DNA of 27,443 nucleotides from a virus: positions 1 through 27,443 of the IMG/VR virus record IMGVR_UViG_3300006738_000061; one strand, written 5' to 3'. The notes beneath the pieces are model-generated. The model did not search any database. It was not told the DNA's origin and was given only the letters and a program-made list of their open reading frames with translations. Of this stretch, positions 1,224 through 27,443 are shown piece after piece (the first letter of the stretch is position 1; each line of letters starts with the position of its first letter). The position numbers and the translations under genes were made by a program.

Positions 1224-1430
1224 ATGCATGGAGGGCGCATAGAATTTAGAGAATGGGATGCAGATAATGGAATTCTGTATTTATTCTTAAGAGGAGCTTG
1301 TAGTGGATGCTCTATGTCAAGTGCAACATTAAAAATGGGTGTAGAAAATATGGTTAAACATTATTTTCCAGAAGTAAAATTAGTAGAAGGAATAGATGAC
1401 CCAGATTCGGAAGTTGATCCTTATTACTAA
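1224..1430 (+). CDS. NifU C-terminal-domain (NfuA-like) Fe-S cluster protein
   Basis: This is a small protein matching the NifU C-terminal domain, which binds a 4Fe-4S cluster through a CxxC pair and hands it to client proteins. Visible signature: HGGRIEF, then GACSGCSMSSATLKMGVE with the two cluster-ligand cysteines, then FPEVKLVEG. Starting at the first in-frame ATG (1224) gives 68 residues and cuts off the usual first helix; this ATG has no ribosome binding site. With a -1 shift in the upstream A10 run the protein would be 97 residues from ATG 1138, a normal length for a stand-alone domain. Which phage or host Fe-S protein it serves is not visible. The fold assignment is firm, the start is uncertain. 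Confidence 0.85.
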   Translation: MHGGRIEFREWDADNGILYLFLRGACSGCSMSSATLKMGVENMVKHYFPEVKLVEGIDDPDSEVDPYY

Positions 1431-3430: not shown

Positions 3431-4144
3431 ATGTTAGATAAATATGAAAATAAAGTATTCTCTCAATTTGGAGAAGATGGAATAACAGATTACATTTTCA
3501 CAAAAATAGGCACAGATAATGAATATTTTGTTGAAATTGGGACTCAAGATGGTAGTGAGTGCAATACACGATTTCTAAGAGAGCAACGTGGATGGACAGG
3601 AATACAAATTGATGCCAAATATGAGAACCCACTAATCAATCTTCATAAGCATATGGTTAATAAAGAGAATATTATTTCAATTTTACAATCTTATCAAGTA
3701 CCTTATAAATTTGACTATTTTTCTCTTGATATTGATGGAATAGATTGGTATATACTTAATGAAATTTTAAACTATTATGAAGTTAGGGCTTTTGTCTGTG
3801 AGTATAATGCTTGTTTAGCTGTTAATGTTGACCAAGTTATTCAATACGATCCTAATTTTTGGGATGCTGGCCCTTATAACATTTATCATGGGGCGAGTTT
3901 AAAAGCATTTTACAATCTTGCACGGTCAAAATCTTATTCTTTAGTTCATTCTAATGGAGTTAACGCTTTTTTTGTAAACGATAATTATTGGACAGGTGAC
4001 GAAGATTTTCCAAAAACAAATAACTTAGAAGCTCTTTGGAAAGATTACCCCGAATTTTTAGGATACCGTTTTGTACATGAGCATGAATCCCACGAACATG
4101 CTAACTTTAATACATCAGAGTTGCTTCTAGAATTAGAATTATGA
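3431..4144 (+). CDS. FkbM-like SAM-dependent methyltransferase
   Basis: This 237-residue protein has a class I methyltransferase motif I, FVEIGTQDGSECNT (33-46), an acidic residue at the end of strand 2 (IQIDAKYE, D61) and a motif FDYFSLDIDGID (94-105) typical of FkbM-family enzymes, which usually methylate sugar hydroxyls. It lies between a glycosyltransferase and gp47, overlaps gp47 by four bases (ATGA) and is clearly in the same operon. Pairing with the glycosyltransferase suggests that the transferred sugar is O-methylated; that is inference. Its C-terminus is rich in His and Glu (HEHESHEHANF), a possible metal-binding tail of unknown meaning. Confidence 0.7.
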   Translation: MLDKYENKVFSQFGEDGITDYIFTKIGTDNEYFVEIGTQDGSECNTRFLREQRGWTGIQIDAKYENPLINLHKHMVNKENIISILQSYQVPYKFDYFSLDIDGIDWYILNEILNYYEVRAFVCEYNACLAVNVDQVIQYDPNFWDAGPYNIYHGASLKAFYNLARSKSYSLVHSNGVNAFFVNDNYWTGDEDFPKTNNLEALWKDYPEFLGYRFVHEHESHEHANFNTSELLLELEL

Positions 4145-5100
4145 AAATTTTACTTTCCGCAGACTGGCATATTGCTCTTCATAAGAAAAAAATTCCAAGC
4201 GATTGGCAAGCTAATCGCTTTAGATTATTTTACAAAAAATTATATGAATTAGAACAAGATTGTGATATTCATATTATTGCAGGAGACGTGTTTGATAAAA
4301 AACCCGAACCAGATGAAATATGTTTATTTTTAAGTTATATCAATTCAACCTCGATTCCCACATTTATCATACCAGGAAATCATGAAGCAACTAAAAAGGG
4401 TTATACTTTTTTATCGCATTTCCATGAAGATAATGCTATTAAAAATTCAAATGTGGAAATTATTACTCAAAATATCCGTAAAGACATTCTCAGTCAAGGA
4501 TTTCAATTCTTTCCTTATGGAGAAATGCAGACAAATAATTTGCCTAAGCCTATGCCAAATGATATCTTGGTTACGCATATTAGAGGAGAAGTACCTCCGC
4601 ACATCACTCCTGAGTACGATTTTGAAAAGCTTCGTCCCTGGAAACTCATACTTTTGGGCGATTTACACTTTAATCATCGTTACTTGGATTATCCAGCTTA
4701 CTATCCTGGTAGCCCTCTAAATGTGTCTTTTGACAGAGACGAAAAAAGACAATATGGAGTAGATATTATAAATTTTAATACAATTAATGATTATTCTGTT
4801 GATTTTATTGATTTAAAATTACCTAAACTTCTTCGTAGAACTATTAAAGCAGATGAATCTATGCAAAAAGATGATTATCATCATGTTATCTATGAAATTA
4901 CAGGAAGTATTGACGAATTATCAAAAATTTCTAATCATGATCAATTAGATAAAAAAATAGCTTTTAAACCAGAAGAATCCTCTAAATTAGAATTAAAAGA
5001 TTTATCTCTAATGGAAGAATTAAAAGCTTATTTAGAATATATTAAAGTAGATGATACCAATGCGGTAATAACAGAATTTCAAGAGTTAAACATTCAATGA
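4141..5100 (+). CDS. Recombination endonuclease subunit gp47 (SbcD/Mre11-like)
   Basis: This is a calcineurin-like phosphoesterase of the SbcD/Mre11 family, 319 residues, close to T4 gp47 in length. Metal-binding motifs appear in order: SADWHI (D8, H10), GDVFDK (D49), PGNHE (N80, H81), VTHIRGE (H146) and GDLHFNH (H176). With gp46 it forms the complex that resects double-strand ends and generates 3' ssDNA for strand invasion and recombination-dependent replication. Its stop overlaps the gp46 start (ATGA at 5097), the usual translational coupling of this pair. Confidence 0.93.
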   Translation: MKILLSADWHIALHKKKIPSDWQANRFRLFYKKLYELEQDCDIHIIAGDVFDKKPEPDEICLFLSYINSTSIPTFIIPGNHEATKKGYTFLSHFHEDNAIKNSNVEIITQNIRKDILSQGFQFFPYGEMQTNNLPKPMPNDILVTHIRGEVPPHITPEYDFEKLRPWKLILLGDLHFNHRYLDYPAYYPGSPLNVSFDRDEKRQYGVDIINFNTINDYSVDFIDLKLPKLLRRTIKADESMQKDDYHHVIYEITGSIDELSKISNHDQLDKKIAFKPEESSKLELKDLSLMEELKAYLEYIKVDDTNAVITEFQELNIQ

Positions 5101-6932
5101 TTACTTTAAATAAACTTTCTATCAATAATATGTTTAGTTATGGTCAAAATAATGAAATTGACCTAAGTTCTAATAAAATAACACAATTAACTGCCCCAAA
5201 TGGAAGTGGAAAATCTTCTATCGCTCTTGTCTTGCAAGAATTACTCTATAGTAAAAATATTAAAGGTATAAAAAAGGCAGATATTCTTAATCGATATGTA
5301 AAAGAAGATACTTGGTCAGGAAAACTAGACTTTACAGTTGAAAATAAAAATTATGTCGTTGAAGTTAAAAGAACTAAGAATCAAAGCAAAGTAAAACTGT
5401 TTGAACAAACCGATACAAAAACAATAGATTTAACTGAACATAAAATTCCAGATACTTATAAAAAAATACAAGAACTTATTGGTCTCGATTTTGAAATATT
5501 TTCACAACTTACCTATCAAAGTAGTACTGATTTATTAGACTTTCTTAAAGCTACCGATACCAATAGAAAAAAGTTTTTAATCAACTTATTTAACCTTGAA
5601 AAATATCCAAATATTGGGGAAGTAATCAAATTAAAACTTTCAGAATCGGAAAAAGAGTCTTTTAAATTAGATGGAGAATTAAAAAGTGTAAAAGATTTTT
5701 TAAATGATGTTCTCATAGAAGATAAAAAGTCTTTAATTGAAGTACCTATAGTTGATGAAGAAAAAAGAAATCAATTAGCTAGTGCACAAAATAAAATTAC
5801 TGAATATGAATCTTTATGTAAGAGAATTGATAAAAATAATTTATATATTGGAGAACGTAAAGAATTAAATTTTGATATTTCTTTATCAGAACCGACTAAG
5901 ATTAACCACATATATCAGCAACAGCAAGAAATAAATGAAGAAGTAAGGTCACTTTCTATACATCAAAAAAATATAAAAAAGTCATTATCTAATTTAGATA
6001 TAACAGACAAATGCTATACTTGTGGGCAATCAATCGATAATACACAATCAATTCATTTAAAAGATAACTTAGAAGAAGATTTATTTAAAAGTAAATCAAA
6101 AAAGTCTGATTTAACACTGAATTTACTTCAAATAGAGGGTAATATTAAAGAATACGAAAATAAGATCAAACACTGGGAAAACAATAAAAAGGCTATTGAA
6201 AAATTTGAACAACTTAGCCAGTTTATAGATATCACTATACCTACAGAATATCCTGATTTTAATACATTAAAAAATGAAGTACAAATATTACAAGATGAGT
6301 TAAAAATTCAAGAAACTCAAAGAAAAGAATCTATTGAATATAATGAAAAAATAAAAACTCACAATACTAAAGTAGACACCCTAATTGAACAAAAAAGATA
6401 TTTTTTAGCTAGACAAGAGCTATTAAGTAATGATATAATTAATCTTAAATCAAAAATTAAAAATCTTAATATATTACGAAAAGCATTTAGTACAACTGGA
6501 ATTGTAGCATTTAAACTTGAGAACTTAACTAAAGAACTTGAAGCTGTTATCAACGATTATCTATCAGATTTATCAGATGGGCAGTTTCAAGTTATTTTTC
6601 GTTTAACTGGAGAAAAGTTAAATATTGTAGTCGTTAATAATGGTCAGGAATCACCAATAGAAACAGTTTCTGGAGGAGAATTTAGTAGAATTCAAACTGC
6701 TATTTTATTAGCAATTCGTAATGTTTTATCTAAAATTGGAGGAAATTATATAAATCTTCTATTCTTAGATGAAATTACAGGTGTTTTAGACGAGGCTGGA
6801 AAAGAAAAATTAATTGATATCTTACAAGAAGAAGATAATTTAAATATTTTTCTTATTTCCCATGATTTTACACACCCATTAATTGATAAAATCACTATTA
6901 TAAAAGATAACAACATTAGTTGTTTAGAGTAA
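5097..6932 (+). CDS. Recombination endonuclease subunit gp46 (SbcC/Rad50-like ATPase)
   Basis: This 611-residue SMC-like ATPase has Walker A APNGSGKSS (33-41), long Lys/Glu-rich coiled-coil arms, a zinc hook CYTC (C306, C309) at the apex, the ABC signature VSGGEFSR (524-531) and Walker B LLFLDEIT (D558, E559). It powers and positions the gp47 nuclease at DNA ends. Length is slightly above T4 gp46 (560). ATGA overlap with gp47 couples translation. Ten bases separate its stop from nrdA, with an AAGGA element between. Confidence 0.93.
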   Translation: MITLNKLSINNMFSYGQNNEIDLSSNKITQLTAPNGSGKSSIALVLQELLYSKNIKGIKKADILNRYVKEDTWSGKLDFTVENKNYVVEVKRTKNQSKVKLFEQTDTKTIDLTEHKIPDTYKKIQELIGLDFEIFSQLTYQSSTDLLDFLKATDTNRKKFLINLFNLEKYPNIGEVIKLKLSESEKESFKLDGELKSVKDFLNDVLIEDKKSLIEVPIVDEEKRNQLASAQNKITEYESLCKRIDKNNLYIGERKELNFDISLSEPTKINHIYQQQQEINEEVRSLSIHQKNIKKSLSNLDITDKCYTCGQSIDNTQSIHLKDNLEEDLFKSKSKKSDLTLNLLQIEGNIKEYENKIKHWENNKKAIEKFEQLSQFIDITIPTEYPDFNTLKNEVQILQDELKIQETQRKESIEYNEKIKTHNTKVDTLIEQKRYFLARQELLSNDIINLKSKIKNLNILRKAFSTTGIVAFKLENLTKELEAVINDYLSDLSDGQFQVIFRLTGEKLNIVVVNNGQESPIETVSGGEFSRIQTAILLAIRNVLSKIGGNYINLLFLDEITGVLDEAGKEKLIDILQEEDNLNIFLISHDFTHPLIDKITIIKDNNISCLE

Positions 6933-18126: not shown

Positions 18127-18981
18127 TTAATCCTTCTCATCTTCATTCTCTTCTTCTTCTTTTGGCTCTGGGTTATCACCAATAATAAATCCATATTTAT
18201 TCTCTCGTAAGAAAATTCGAATCTCTGCTATTGGGCGACTCCAAGCCATATGAGATACAACATTACCCCACCCATAAGCAGATACCATACTAGGAACACC
18301 TATTAATTCATATGTTCTCCGAGGACTATATACATATAAGCTGCCACCAGAATTTCCAAAAATAATAGGGGAACTTGAAAGATATAATTCATTACCATCT
18401 TGATCCCTACCATAACCAGCTAAAAGACCCATTGTAGGAAACGGAGGTTTCCCAAGTCCTGCACCTACTGCATAAACAGTCTGAAAAATCCACGGACCCT
18501 CATCTAATCCCTCTGGATATAAAGTAGCTACATAAGGCATTTGTCGCTCAGTGTCTTTAACCCTTAAGAGCGCTAAATCCCGACTCTTATCATAGGCCAT
18601 AATATCAGCTATTCGTCCCATTGTACCAATAGCAGTACTAAAGTTATTATATTCCCATAAATCAATATTTACAGGGCGTCGATTTTCGGTTTCAACGTGT
18701 TTATTTTTTTCGGGACTCCAAACTTCAGTTATTTTTATATAATTTTGAATCACATGGTAATTTGTAAGAACATAACTTGCATAACTCTGATTTTCATCTA
18801 ACTCAGAATAAATTACCGTGCCAGAGCCAGTACCATTAGCTAACCTTACAAGCACTGTCGGATATAACATTTCCATATGTTCTTGCTCAGGTGTAATCCC
18901 ACTTTTCTTAGGATTAGCATAACCCAAAGAAGTACTAAATATTAAAATTGCTACTAAAAACACTGTTGAAAATATCTTCAT
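18127..18981 (-). CDS. Exported trypsin-like serine protease
   Basis: This 284-residue protein has a signal peptide (MKIFSTVFLVAILIFSTSLG, YAN cleavage) and a trypsin/DegP-type protease fold. The catalytic triad is visible as H76 (LTNYHVIQN), D135 (SRDLALLRV) and S211 (FGNSGGSLY). There is no PDZ domain; the C-terminus is a Glu-rich acidic tail (EPKEEEENEDEKD). Start 18981 was chosen for the leader and an AAGGGA element. It would act in the periplasm or at the virion or envelope. It lies between a Cys-rich micro-protein and a small signal-peptide protein. The substrate is unknown; virion maturation, tail-tip processing or host envelope damage are possibilities. Confidence 0.85.
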   Translation of the reverse strand: MKIFSTVFLVAILIFSTSLGYANPKKSGITPEQEHMEMLYPTVLVRLANGTGSGTVIYSELDENQSYASYVLTNYHVIQNYIKITEVWSPEKNKHVETENRRPVNIDLWEYNNFSTAIGTMGRIADIMAYDKSRDLALLRVKDTERQMPYVATLYPEGLDEGPWIFQTVYAVGAGLGKPPFPTMGLLAGYGRDQDGNELYLSSSPIIFGNSGGSLYVYSPRRTYELIGVPSMVSAYGWGNVVSHMAWSRPIAEIRIFLRENKYGFIIGDNPEPKEEEENEDEKD

Positions 18982-19018
18982 TATTTTTTTCCCTTCACTT
19001 ATCTTCGTCGATAATCCA

Positions 19019-19132
19019 TTAATCATCCGTAGTTGTACAGTCACAACAACCAGAACCAGGTACACAAGGACTGCATTCACAAGGGTCACACATACACTCA
19101 GGAATAGGACACGTTACTGAATTCTCTGACAT
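19019..19132 (-). CDS. Cysteine-rich micro-protein (37 aa, 9 Cys), metallothionein-like
   Basis: The frame MSENSVTCPIPECMCDPCEC continues with SPCVPGSGCCDCTTTDD and stops. Nine of 37 residues are Cys (8, 13, 15, 18, 20, 23, 29, 30, 32), spaced as CxC, CxxC and CCxC, with Pro, Asp and Glu between and no basic residues. An AGAGGTG element lies about seven bases before the ATG and a promoter (19180-19208) upstream, so it appears to be a real gene. Density and spacing suggest a metal-thiolate cluster or dense disulfides. It has no signal peptide. I know no family match. Confidence 0.7.
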   Translation of the reverse strand: MSENSVTCPIPECMCDPCECSPCVPGSGCCDCTTTDD

Positions 19133-23400: not shown

Positions 23401-23986
23401 ACCCAGCAACATAAACATTTCCTGCTTTAACAGTATTCGGTCTCCATCCAGCTGTAGTAGTAGTAGTTGCCGCTCTTAAATGATCTTTATCAATTAATTG
23501 AGAAAAAGTAACATAAAAAGGAGCTGTTGGGATAGTAGTAGATAGAGTCTGATCTCCAGCATGTTCATTTACAATTTCTACAAAATTTTGAGATATATCA
23601 TATGTTGCAATATTATAACTAAGTTCAGTACTCGTTGGTAATGCTCCTACAAAATTTTCGGGAGAAATATCTGTAGTTTTATCCTTTAAAGGAATAGTAA
23701 CAAAATCAAAACCTTTTATAAATCCACTTGCTGCTTGAAAAGTAGTATCATTAACAGCTAAAACATGTTTATCAAAATTATAATCATGTAATTGATCAAA
23801 ACCAACTACAGTAAATCTTAAATTTCCATTTGGTCTATCATCAGTTTGATTAACTACACTAGCAGAGTTTGCAAGTAGCGGAATGCTTCCAAACGTAGTT
23901 TGAAAACCATTTTTTCCTAATAAAATAGAGGCAAAATTATTAGAAAAATCAGATGTATTAGCTAATTTAAATTTAATATTTGCCAT
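20489..23986 (-). CDS. Large tail tip/fibre protein with fibronectin-III-like repeats
   Basis: This 1165-residue protein lacks membrane segments or enzymatic motifs. Fibronectin-III-like repeats can be picked out around residues 385-425 (end of one), 430-550 and 552-665 (WTLPV...IEIRR pattern). The flanks are rich in Asn/Val/Thr, with recurring short words such as GNVY, GNTY and GNIYA. In lambda-type tails such domains form the C-terminal half of J; here they are in a separate gene that starts inside the J stop (TAATG), so this may be a split J or a central fibre. It likely carries receptor specificity with the following fibre. Confidence 0.7.
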   Translation of the reverse strand: MANIKFKLANTSDFSNNFASILLGKNGFQTTFGSIPLLANSASVVNQTDDRPNGNLRFTVVGFDQLHDYNFDKHVLAVNDTTFQAASGFIKGFDFVTIPLKDKTTDISPENFVGALPTSTELSYNIATYDISQNFVEIVNEHAGDQTLSTTIPTAPFYVTFSQLIDKDHLRAATTTTTAGWRPNTVKAGNVYVAGSTRTLILDNNVKGFTGNKTLPLGVNVKDKNFIKFYIDGILITDSDYSFTADSNNLNFDFDSVNNPQRSRTEATYYTVPAIEKGDNVTLFTGNTYAVANVSYDPHFPEDYNARITANTVYRLTLSTPLRANVGGATLINITNDPLGFIGNVLQTSNTLTFDYNATSHPGNWNLANNQIYQLASRLEYEQYFFGQPSRKIIPNVPIGLNAVRARNKNSAGRFSPYTSQSVVVRQIPIQRVQNLSITESLYLDTTRGISTRATISFDTIENQSVTDYEISYRISGTAQIIGNVNQLLPLTSFNTVKVNQEGAEDGVIRFTLQNIDRIVQGQITLLVRVTPLNKDVRGISHEVSQQIIGKTEQPSNVLSFIVGQNDNNIVMNWTLPVTVGTDGAPILQDLDLEHIEIRRLTEKIDVDSQSDLSAAFGRAREVALVSAPATNVTIPVPDYEMGTYIIRTVDTSRNASADYTGYQFQARRSQSQDVYKAYSESSPNKPFANTKLGAAVTNSNSAETNFPSDTGNRDGLVYADRLLRDATITAQTPSTKIDNSNGTASGWSETDDAHDRIASGGAAEYIAQIRDLGSNVTGKIIVSLSSNVISSDTWGSSQGIEIVSATSDVHKGRPGIRSANVLIDKAASGGIGIGDFLSDHIVSSSETLAFDNFITHTLTSNSTDLSGSVSTLNDAKVFSGNIYAIWNSGQHAGDVANANSFALIAGKINAVALELGNVYTSQVVAGVGTRYRITANAMPNVTQNAATYKIVNLNQYLDIPTKSFFGDPSVITQNVDIRLATSNVHLASDPTNFVFAQASNGNVKTNAFVSFNTASGFLGATASDQKFRFFQVRLQVQNANPAQNNYLLEALNYTIELAEQTFIQTKDIILTKGPTVDAGKDGVGFNYISTEFKNAPSVTATISNTRIGLIAVVSNVTNQYANVNLYFASNGAIVDSTNYPGKDQESAADRLINVGKVTVEAVGI

Positions 23987-26900
23987 TAGGGAATCACCTT
24001 AAGAATATCAGATATACTACTTGGAGTAGCGTATTCATAAATTGTTTTAATTGCAATTGGATATCCTGATACATTTGTTGAATCCGAAACTTCAAGATCA
24101 GTCACTATTGTTCCATCAGGAAGATTATGTGGGTATGGTGTCAATTTAAAGTCAGGAGTAGGAGGGGGTACTAAAGGACTAAAAGTATCTACATAACGCA
24201 CCGGAGTATAATTAATGGCGGTGTCTGAATCCACAAAAACATTAGCGATATACTCTGAAGCGGTAACAGTAATTTTTTCTTCTTCGTCTCTCGAAATAGT
24301 TGAAACCTTAAAAAATTTATCAGTAGTATCACGATAAAAACTATTAGGATCAACTTCTCCTAAATTCCAGGAATCACCAATTGCTGGTCGAGTATTTGAA
24401 CTCCACGCAAAATTACTATTCCAAGTTTTAGTTTTCAGATCAAAATATTTAATAGCTCGAACCTCGATAAAATCAGCCCCTGTTACAACATTTGAAACTA
24501 CATTAGCCGCGGCATTTCCGCTTCCACCCACAATCGTATTAGCTGCGGTATTAGATAACATATATAAACTAATATCTTCATTTCGATTACTAAAAACTCG
24601 TAATCCTACTGGTAAGGTATTAGCTGTAAAGGTAGACATAGTAATAGCGGGAACTGTAAAATGTTCCAATCTTATATTAGCATAACTAGAAGTAAGAAGG
24701 GGGTTGGTAGGTTGTGTGGCACTAGATCCTCGTAAAGTACTATTTCCGCTTACTCTTCCCCCGAATCCGTAAGATGTTCCAATCATTTTTTGTTGAACGG
24801 CAATTAAATCACCAGGAGATAGACCTATAGCTGAAGTATCTGTCTCAAATCCTATTTTTCTTCGAACAAATTTACTTGATGCTATTAGATATTGAGCATA
24901 TCGCATAGCTTGACTTCTACGAGTTACACCAGGTAACTCAATACTTTGAATATTCTCAATTTGATTTAATTCATCAACAGAAATGGGGTCATCCACTCTC
25001 ATTGTTTCTCTTTTATAATGATTATTAGGATTAATATAATTTATATCTACCCCTGTAATAATATCGCTCTCACTAATACCACTAATTGCAACACTATCGG
25101 GTTTCATATTAGTTTCATTAAAAACCATAATAGGTACTTCATCTGGCATATCAATTTGAAGAGATAATTTTCCACCACTATAAATAATAACTGATCTTAG
25201 TGTTCCACAAATTTGATTTAATAAATCAAACGCTTGTTGTTGGTCACTTAGTAATAAATCTAATATAAATCTGCGTTCTTTTACAGCAATACCTTCATTA
25301 ATTCCCAATAAAGTTTCTCTAACTGTTGCAAATTTAGTTCGGGGCTTATGTCGATAACTACCATCAGAAAATCCATCTACTCCATACCATTTTCCAGTGG
25401 TTACATCTACTCCATCACAATATTGGGCAATTTTATAAAATTGAAATTTATCAATGTTTTCTTCAGGAATTCCTAATCCATAATTAGGATTAATTAACAA
25501 ATCAAAAATTATCCATGCAGGATTTTGAGTCCAAGAAAAAACAAATGCTCCGTCCCAAATCCCTTTATAAATTTGAGGGTTAGCAGCTGTATAAGTAGTA
25601 TCAGTGCCTCCACTCTGTAATCTATATCCATGTGTAGTATAACCATTAACTCCAGTTTCGGGTAATTCTAATTCTCTCCAATCTATTTCTCCATTAGCTA
25701 AAATAGGCTGATCATAATTAGAAGGAACTGGTGTTAATAATCCTTTTACTATACTAGTTGCTGTGGGAACTCCGCCAACATGTTCATTATGAGCTAATAA
25801 AGCATAACCTACTGCAGATGTCCTCGGATAAGCAGTTCTTTCTTCTTTAATTTCTAGCCAATTTTGAAAAGAAACTACATCTTGAATCTTAGAAGAATCC
25901 GAATCATCAGAAGTTTTCTCAATAGTAAATTTATATCCACCCCTATTTCGATCTTCTTTCGCAATAGGATAATTTATTTGAAATTGAAAAGGTGTATTTG
26001 TTTTATTATTAAAATCTTTAGTAATTCCAGAGGTTGTTTGATTACCATTATCATCAGTAGTTTTTAATATATCAGTTCCTGTTCTATCAAATACTTTAAT
26101 ATTTATACTCAAATTATAGTTAAAGATACTTCCACTAGTATCCATTCTTAATAAACTTTGAATTGAAAATGTAAAAGTTATGGCACTAAAGTCATCTACA
26201 CTTGTATTTTGAAGTGTTACTTTTGATTGAGGAACTCCTATAACATTACCTTTACGTAAAGTAATAGCACTTGCTAAAGATTGCGGAACAACTGTTCGAG
26301 TACCAAATACAGGCATCTCTGATTGAGTAAGAGTTCCTGTTCTTTCTAAAGTTTTAAATAAATCTGTATTAGCCGCACCATCTCCATCTAAATTAATCAG
26401 ATCATCAATAGTTCCTTCATTTAATTCAATATCTTGAGGTCCTAACGGATTAATTCTATAAATAGGGCCTTCACCTAAAGCAATAGTTGTTAAAACAATA
26501 TCTGTAGAAAATAAATTATTAGGTTCCTCAGTAGGAGCTGGAGCAGGTGAGCCTCCCCCTTTTCCTCCACCTTTATTATGAACTCTAAACCCATTAACAA
26601 AAAAAGTATGATAATCTTTTACAGTTAATGTATAAACTACTTCTGGTTGTAAGTGTTGAATTGATAATATTTTTTGAGGCTCATTTTTTAAATCAAGTAA
26701 ATAATCACCTTTTTCAAAATCTGAAGCATAAGCATATTGGCCATTCGCTTTTAATACCCAATGATTAGGAGTAGCTATTAAACGCCCCATCCCTAACATA
26801 AATTCTAATACTTCTTGTTTACCATGAGTATAAACTTCAGTAACAGGTCTAGTTAATACTTCTCCGTCGGGAGTATAACAAAGAACATTATCACCAATCT

Positions 26901-27024
26901 GAAAATCTTTAATAGCCGTACTTCCTGAAGGAGTTAATACTAAAGCATCTCCTGGAAAGCATCCGCCTTTAGCTCCATGAATAGGTGGAGCTGCATTAAT
27001 TGTAGTAATTTGACGTTGAGACAT
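23986..27024 (-). CDS. J-like tail tip attachment protein with inserted Hint domain
   Basis: This 1012-residue protein follows an I-like gene (stop directly followed by ATG) and shows the J-type core, for example IALGEGPIYRINPLGP (181-196) and NPAWIIFDLLINPNYGLGIP (501-520) followed by IDKFQFYKIAQYCD. J forms the tail tip that contacts the receptor. The Gly-rich N-terminus (HGAKGG, KGGGKGGG) is interrupted by a 129-residue intein-like domain at 22-150. The fn3 region expected at the C-terminus of lambda J is absent and found in the next gene. A GGAG element precedes the start. Confidence 0.85.
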   Translation of the reverse strand: MSQRQITTINAAPPIHGAKGGCFPGDALVLTPSGSTAIKDFQIGDNVLCYTPDGEVLTRPVTEVYTHGKQEVLEFMLGMGRLIATPNHWVLKANGQYAYASDFEKGDYLLDLKNEPQKILSIQHLQPEVVYTLTVKDYHTFFVNGFRVHNKGGGKGGGSPAPAPTEEPNNLFSTDIVLTTIALGEGPIYRINPLGPQDIELNEGTIDDLINLDGDGAANTDLFKTLERTGTLTQSEMPVFGTRTVVPQSLASAITLRKGNVIGVPQSKVTLQNTSVDDFSAITFTFSIQSLLRMDTSGSIFNYNLSINIKVFDRTGTDILKTTDDNGNQTTSGITKDFNNKTNTPFQFQINYPIAKEDRNRGGYKFTIEKTSDDSDSSKIQDVVSFQNWLEIKEERTAYPRTSAVGYALLAHNEHVGGVPTATSIVKGLLTPVPSNYDQPILANGEIDWRELELPETGVNGYTTHGYRLQSGGTDTTYTAANPQIYKGIWDGAFVFSWTQNPAWIIFDLLINPNYGLGIPEENIDKFQFYKIAQYCDGVDVTTGKWYGVDGFSDGSYRHKPRTKFATVRETLLGINEGIAVKERRFILDLLLSDQQQAFDLLNQICGTLRSVIIYSGGKLSLQIDMPDEVPIMVFNETNMKPDSVAISGISESDIITGVDINYINPNNHYKRETMRVDDPISVDELNQIENIQSIELPGVTRRSQAMRYAQYLIASSKFVRRKIGFETDTSAIGLSPGDLIAVQQKMIGTSYGFGGRVSGNSTLRGSSATQPTNPLLTSSYANIRLEHFTVPAITMSTFTANTLPVGLRVFSNRNEDISLYMLSNTAANTIVGGSGNAAANVVSNVVTGADFIEVRAIKYFDLKTKTWNSNFAWSSNTRPAIGDSWNLGEVDPNSFYRDTTDKFFKVSTISRDEEEKITVTASEYIANVFVDSDTAINYTPVRYVDTFSPLVPPPTPDFKLTPYPHNLPDGTIVTDLEVSDSTNVSGYPIAIKTIYEYATPSSISDILKVIP
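26575..26961 (-). other. Hint / bacterial intein-like (BIL type A) domain within the J-like protein
   Basis: Residues 22-150 of the J-like protein form a complete mini-Hint domain without endonuclease. Block A is CFPGDALVLTPSG with Cys1 (C22). Block B is GRLIATPNHWVL with the TxxH motif. Block F is VYTLTVKDYHTFFVNGFRV and block G ends in His-Asn (149-150). The +1 residue is Lys, not Cys/Ser/Thr, as allowed in type A BIL domains. It is flanked by KGG on both sides, encoded by AAAGGCGGA before and AAAGGTGGA after. N-S acyl shift and Asn cyclisation residues are present; classical splicing is not expected. Confidence 0.85.
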
Positions 27025-27443
27025 TTAATTAGCTCCTGGAGGAAATAACGCTGAAACTTTTATAAACTCATTTCGTCCGTGTTCAATAGTTCTAATTTCT
27101 CCACTCACAAATTGACCTCCAATACGAGTTCTTCCGTATATAATAGGAACGGGAACATTAGAATTTGTAGTATTTTGTAACCCTTGAAAAATTTTATTCT
27201 CTGACCTAGCCTCCGAGTCAGTAGTTTGTGCACCTTCAACAGCAAGCTTTGGGGGTTTCATCATCATTGTCATGACTCCACTGATAATCATGCTAACGCC
27301 CATCGATATCATCATACTAGCTACACTCATACCAGCAATAGTCAGTGCCCCTGTAGTTATCGTCGCACCTGCGAAACCTCCGGCCGACAACATCACTCCC
27401 GCTATTGGGGGGAAATAAATGGCTATTACTATTAAGGCAATTC
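27025..27443 (-). CDS. Tail tip assembly protein I-like (5' end outside window)
   Basis: The frame stays open to the window edge, so the N-terminus is missing; 139 residues are visible. A long Ala/Gly/Met-rich hydrophobic stretch (about 60 residues, including IAGMSVASMMISMGVSMIIS) is followed by KIFQGLQNTTNSNVPVPIIY then GRTRIGGQFVSGEI. The FxGxxNTTxxxxxVPIxYGR pattern is characteristic of lambda gpI-type tail assembly proteins, which help assemble the J tip. The J-like gene begins immediately after its stop. Confidence 0.8.
   Translation of the reverse strand, partial: IALIVIAIYFPPIAGVMLSAGGFAGATITTGALTIAGMSVASMMISMGVSMIISGVMTMMMKPPKLAVEGAQTTDSEARSENKIFQGLQNTTNSNVPVPIIYGRTRIGGQFVSGEIRTIEHGRNEFIKVSALFPPGAN

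Follow-up and report, generated by a model that had tools for sequence, protein, structure and literature searches.

A Hint domain in the N-terminal linker of a lambda J-like tail-tip protein and the predicted self-processing of tail tips in aquatic phages

Two decades after bacterial intein-like (BIL) domains became known, little is understood of what they do in nature. In type A BILs, formation of an N-terminal thioester and Asn cyclization may be followed by ligation through the freed amine, without a nucleophile at +1 (PMC4031507). Cleavage products dominate for these domains (PMC4031507; PMC7664689), and according to PMC7765530 type A BILs cannot ligate. The bacterial proteins from which BILs are described are non-conserved, and the domains lie in their hypervariable regions (PMC7765530).

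The DNA analysed here (the window) is a stretch of 27,443 nucleotides covering positions 1 to 27,443 of the IMG/VR virus record IMGVR_UViG_3300006738_000061. In the window, a lambda J-like tail-tip protein was confirmed to have a Hint domain, encoded by 26575-26961, inserted in its N-terminal Gly/Lys linker. The features of this locus are as follows.

23986..27024 (-): lambda J-like tail-tip protein with Hint insert, 1012 aa (phrog_31, E=6e-93; Pfam Phage-tail_3, E=1e-15; FNIII-A_GpJ, E=2e-8)
26962..27024 (-): N-terminal flank (N-extein-like), 21 aa, MSQRQITTINAAPPIHGAKGG, with Gly at -1 (sequence and motif P.[IVL].G[ASG])
26575..26961 (-): Hint domain, 129 aa, without endonuclease (profiles, PDB match, AF2, Foldseek)
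26959..26961 (-): Cys22 codon, Cys1 of the Hint and predicted thioester former (sequence; 83/83 J-Hints)
26761..26772 (-): block B, T85-P-N-H88 (TxxH; T and H in 83/83 J-Hints)
26608..26610 (-): block F His139 (His in 80/83 J-Hints)
26575..26580 (-): terminal His149-Asn150, predicted Asn cyclization (83/83 J-Hints)
26551..26574 (-): KGGGKGGG linker, with Lys151 at +1 (empty-site relatives likewise have Lys after GG)
23986..26550 (-): remainder of the J-like protein (J profile matches)
27025..27441 (-): tail assembly protein I-like gene immediately upstream of J, truncated at the window end (phrog_32, E=1e-20)

Codons 22-150 of the J ORF correspond exactly to 26575-26961 and encode CFPGDALVLT...FRVHN (14.55 kDa). 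The Hint is preceded by the 21-aa N-flank, which ends in HGAKGG, and is followed by KGGGKGGGSPAPAP; the C-side sequence directly after Asn150 is KGGGKGGGSPAPAPTEEPNN. An internal start after the Hint was rejected because there is no ATG, GTG or TTG between residues 151 and 236 of the window J. No Hint was found within the visible part of the protein I-like gene (27025..27441). Several relatives of the window phage (L002 and L004-L008) have two tandem protein I-like genes upstream of J. Elsewhere in the window, inspection by eye pointed to a small ORF at 1224-1430 (+) resembling the NifU C-terminal iron-sulphur scaffold domain, and to a trypsin-like serine protease-like ORF (GNSGG) at 18127-19089 (-) between tail genes and small ORFs.

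The best Pfam match of the domain was PT-HINT on J residues 28-152 (E=5e-14, above the curated cut-off), and Pfam Hint matched just above its cut-off (E=4e-7). Intein_splicing matched the C-terminal part of the Hint below cut-off (E=4e-6), and the TIGR01445 and TIGR01443 matches were weak and also below cut-off. The phmmer search matched PDB 2lwy, described as a 'bacterial intein-like domain' (E=9e-8), as well as several inteins. The AF2 model of residues 1-158 (pTM 0.80) showed a confident Hint with disordered flanks and block-mean pLDDT values of 85-97 over residues 21-150. In the AF2 model of J residues 1-420, the Hint and a beta domain were confident but their mutual arrangement was not (pTM 0.44), and the linkers were disordered. 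Top Foldseek matches were BIL2 of the T. thermophila BUBL locus (6y75), the C. thermocellum BIL (2lwy) and mini-inteins, with hedgehog 1at0 ranked lower. The block-F aspartate typical of inteins was not evident in the window Hint. J chains in the PDB matched the window J with E down to 2.5e-26, and the solved lambda-type J chains align to it from residue 155, near their own N-terminus, with a KG-rich short start.

The sequence-only reading had assigned the segment to the Hint/BIL fold and had proposed a search against Hint profiles; PT-HINT, 2lwy, AF2 and Foldseek are concordant with this assignment, and both PT-HINT and Hint lie above cut-off. Its description of the domain also held: Cys22, T85-P-N-H88, block-F His139 and His149-Asn150 are all present, the domain has only 129 aa and no endonuclease, and its position in the Gly-rich N-terminal linker of J is exact to the base. 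The two outcomes it had predicted, cleavage and rejoining to AKGG-KGGG, both stand as predicted possibilities.

The Hint domains in J proteins (J-Hints) share with A-type BILs, such as that of C. thermocellum (PDB 2lwy), the Hint fold, Cys1, TxxH and the terminal His-Asn, and both have a non-nucleophilic +1 residue and no endonuclease. The window Hint has the N- and C-terminal splicing motifs and the His-Asn of an A-type BIL and, like it, no nucleophile at +1. Unlike known BILs, J-Hints have a conserved structural protein of phages as their host, occupy a fixed position in its Gly linker and are missing from some alleles. The window domain is called BIL-like rather than a typical BIL because its host is the conserved tail-tip protein J and not a hypervariable, non-conserved protein. 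Class 1 mini-inteins of Vibrio phage helicases have the same fold and motifs and are in-frame inserts like the J-Hints, but the helicase inteins that were read have Cys at +1 whereas tail-tip Hints have Lys, Ala or Gly. The window domain is likewise an in-frame insert with empty-site homologues, and it has Lys151 where a class 1 intein has Cys, Ser or Thr. BIL2 of the Tetrahymena thermophila BUBL1 locus (PDB 6y75) was the best Foldseek match (TM about 0.77-0.81) and has the Hint fold, but its host protein context differs and no ubiquitin-like domain was seen in the window J. Pretoxin Hint (PT-HINT) was the best Pfam match, but the window J has no toxin or secretion architecture, and what comes after its Hint is the J body instead of the C-terminal toxin of a secreted protein. 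The core domains of lambda J-like tail-tip proteins are present.

In the closest IMG/VR relatives (L001-L009 and L017), both the Hint and its flanks are as in the window J. L010, which is 47% identical to the window in the J body, has an empty site (...PQIRGAKGG-KGGGAEPYTP...). A J-body alignment scan gave 80 loci, some filled and many empty. Further filled lineages contain quite different Hints (L040/L073, L041-L043, L044-L053, L054-L057 and L071), all with Cys1, TPNHW, His-Asn and Lys at +1. Many empty J proteins share the context P.I.G(A/S/G)KGG-KGG, so a Lys at this position is usual for J even where the insert is missing. The flanks of empty-site relatives are GAKGG-KGGG, as in filled ones. 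Lys+1 thus appears to be the host protein's own residue and not a catalytic novelty. The sequence-only reading had drawn attention to this Lys, but it is not special: empty-site relatives have the same Lys, and Ala, Gly and Ser are found in other J lineages. Nor is the insert an oddity of one phage; it recurs in tail proteins of aquatic phages.

In the window's lineage (K family), the motif P.[IVL].G[ASG] was found in 27/27 distinct filled N-flanks and 26/28 empty J N-termini, and in 0.8% of shuffled flanks. A stricter form of this motif was repeated after the Hint in none of 22 K-family C-flanks. Since the motif is only upstream of the Hint, mature J would keep it only by rejoining or by no processing at all. 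For this lineage, the predicted rejoining to AKGG-KGGG fits the comparative data better than simple cleavage.

A total of 83 distinct complete J-Hints were collected from the Hint-alignment scan, a scan with the body of an Ala+1 J lineage, and earlier loci; these sequences are related, and counts among them are not counts of independent events. Their pairwise identity had a minimum of 28% and a median of 43%, and they formed seven groups at 50% single linkage. Cys1, the T and H of TxxH, the penultimate His, the Asn and Gly at -1 were present in 83/83, and the block-F His in 80/83. Degraded catalytic residues among homologues would have spoken against the sequence-only reading, and these residues were intact in every J-Hint. 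Their invariance across all seven groups argues that the chemistry is maintained. The +1 residue was A, K, G and S in 44, 36, 2 and 1 J-Hints, respectively; it was therefore non-nucleophilic in 82/83, the exception being Ser. No endonuclease was present in any J-Hint seen. The dN/dS of the Hint was mostly 0.05-0.3 for pairs of moderate divergence, similar to that of the J body or somewhat higher, and one near-identical pair gave a noisy value of 0.53. Judged by these ratios, the Hint is under purifying selection. Because Cys1 and TxxH are invariant even though C-terminal cleavage alone does not need them, the chemistry at the N-terminal junction is probably selected, which favours ligation or, failing that, excision of the Hint from both flanks.

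Among the Hint matches in 50,697 cultured-phage records there was no Hint-bearing J, and nearly all J relatives among the cultured-phage matches listed align only from about residue 159. The scan of genome contigs with the J body yielded nothing, and the one with the Hint alignment yielded four.

In 22/24 distinct C-flanks of the A family, a second copy of the motif, AGLGLGI.G(A/S)GGGG, comes directly after the Hint, and the upstream copy is also retained (31/33). The A-type loci L201 (filled) and L197 (empty) have J bodies that are 98.6% identical over 697 aa. Their DNA is about 92% identical in both flanks, and the extra part consists of the Hint and AGLGLG. As such closely related J alleles without the domain exist, we consider that the A-type Hint is dispensable there. 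About 24 bp of the target are present on both sides of the A-type cassette of L201, and these duplicated target codons may tell how inserts arise without an endonuclease. G-type J-Hints were found in contigs of Oxalobacter sp. OttesenSCG-928-P03 (L262), Betaproteobacteria (L260) and Chloroflexi (L261), which are probably prophages or binned phage contigs and offer a possible experimental system for J-Hints. The G-type junction, HN-GGHR(E/D)R(Y/H)PV(I/V)AG(A/S)GG, is built as in the A type, and some empty J genes of the same bacterial family begin with MTSLIIGAGGGGKNGGG or similar, as read from the likely start. In both types, C-terminal cleavage alone would already yield a normal-looking J start.

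Hints were also found outside the N-terminal linker of J. The poly-Gly linker of protein I holds a Hint in about 25 contigs (L141 and L263-L288, with gpI at about 4001-5311 in most), with the junction HN-GGGGK or HN-GGAGK. Several adjacent J-like proteins hold a second, diverged Hint in mid-protein, whose +1 residue is R, G or M. A Gp38-like polyglycine adhesin has a Hint between poly-Gly stretches, with the junction HN-KGGGKGT (L140:2450-3715 and the L151 ORF from 2648). The nearest cultured-phage matches to the L041 Hint were the helicase mini-inteins of Vibrio phages, which have Cys at +1 and served as a control. Hints in a Vibrio phage gene adjoining the capsid gene and in a Proteus phage helicase-like protein also have Cys at +1. 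In a Ruminococcus phage (L101:694-6196), three nearby Hint proteins, with A or S after HN, have a pretoxin-like build.

On a J-body tree of 72 rows, the filled or empty state changed 6 times, compared with a shuffled mean of 21.9, which indicates that the Hint is passed on in most cases, with occasional losses or gains. In the Hint tree, a quick tree with few columns and weak resolution, the tail-tip Hints were not strictly sorted by +1 residue. The K-family Hints of L048 and L132 fall within the Ala/Gly group, which suggests that the +1 residue goes with the host J and not with the Hint. A Lys side-chain isopeptide, with Lys+1 as a catalytic novelty, is scarcely credible given this grouping and the same Lys in empty-site relatives.

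From the observed domain, fold, intact residues, empty sites and purifying selection, we infer the chemistry and role as follows. Cys22 would attack the Gly21-Cys22 bond, assisted by T85 and H88, so that the 21-aa N-terminal peptide is held as a Gly thioester. Asn150, assisted by His149, would then cyclize and free the amino group of Lys151. This amine may attack the Gly21 thioester, giving the rejoined ...HGAKGG-KGGGKGGG...; as an acyl donor, Gly at -1 offers the least hindrance. Alternatively, the thioester may be hydrolysed in the last step, and J would start at Lys151. In the window's lineage, rejoining would be kept by selection and cleavage would be a side product. Our main reading is that an active A-type-BIL-like Hint excises itself from J and that rejoining is the selected product in the K family, with a probability of roughly 0.5. 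Self-excision is supported by the Hint profile, the PDB and fold matches, the invariant Cys1, TxxH, His-Asn and Gly-1, the low dN/dS, the empty alleles, the long retention on the J tree and the lack of an internal start codon after the Hint. By analogy, the mostly cleaved products of known A-type BILs would argue against rejoining, and conservation of the N-flank could reflect the needs of the Hint rather than those of mature J. The block-F aspartate that is not evident in the window Hint and the dispensability of the A-type domain also weigh against the main reading.

A cleavable leader, in which the Hint cuts C-terminally (and N-terminally slowly) and is discarded with the N-terminal peptide so that mature J begins at Lys151 (KGGGKGGGSPAP...), seems rather unlikely but deserves weight. 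The non-nucleophilic +1 residue of nearly all J-Hints, the predominance of cleavage for BILs in the literature and the alignment of solved J chains from residue 155 are what it would predict, and in the A type cleavage would restore the motif that is repeated directly after His-Asn. Against this, C-terminal cleavage can do without Cys1 and TxxH, yet both are invariant; the K family would lose its P.I.G motif, and the upstream motif copy persists in the A type too. It is improbable that the domain is a degenerate selfish mini-intein, a remnant without a +1 nucleophile that is tolerated in the Gly linker with no benefit to the phage. Sporadic presence, empty sites and near-identical alleles with and without the Hint are in keeping with such a remnant, as is the Cys kept at +1 by phage helicase mini-inteins of the same fold; but invariant catalytic residues and low dN/dS are the opposite of decay, self-spread is unexplained without an endonuclease, and the domain recurs in other tail proteins. 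That the Hint stays unprocessed as a folded appendage at the N-terminus of J, with a role in assembly or sensing, is highly improbable, as a passive fold would not need invariant Cys1, TxxH and His-Asn, even though AF2 gives an autonomous domain between disordered linkers and the near-isogenic empty alleles indicate that J tolerates both states.

The domain type and its chemistry are already known. Relative to the open-access literature searched, the new elements are the host proteins, the fixed insertion site, the occurrence of such domains in more than one tail-tip protein and the empty alleles as natural controls; no report of Hint domains in J or I was found in that literature, which is no proof of absence. 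Similar Hints in tail-tip proteins of many aquatic viruses suggest a tip that trims itself, or rejoins its own ends, before it comes into use. We suggest only tentatively, and with considerable doubt, that Hints which excise themselves from Gly-rich linkers, and rejoin the flanks without a side-chain nucleophile at +1, mature the tail-tip proteins of many aquatic phages, namely J, I and some adhesins. With fixed hosts (J and I), fixed sites, empty controls at 98% identity and invariant residues, the choice between cleaving, splicing and neither is directly addressable by experiment. If the tip is matured in this way, a self-processing step would be added to siphophage tail assembly, and the invariant Gly at -1 with K, A or G at +1 would represent natural substrates for nucleophile-free ligation. 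If true, this would be a natural, selected nucleophile-free protein ligation and would give BIL-type chemistry a biological role.
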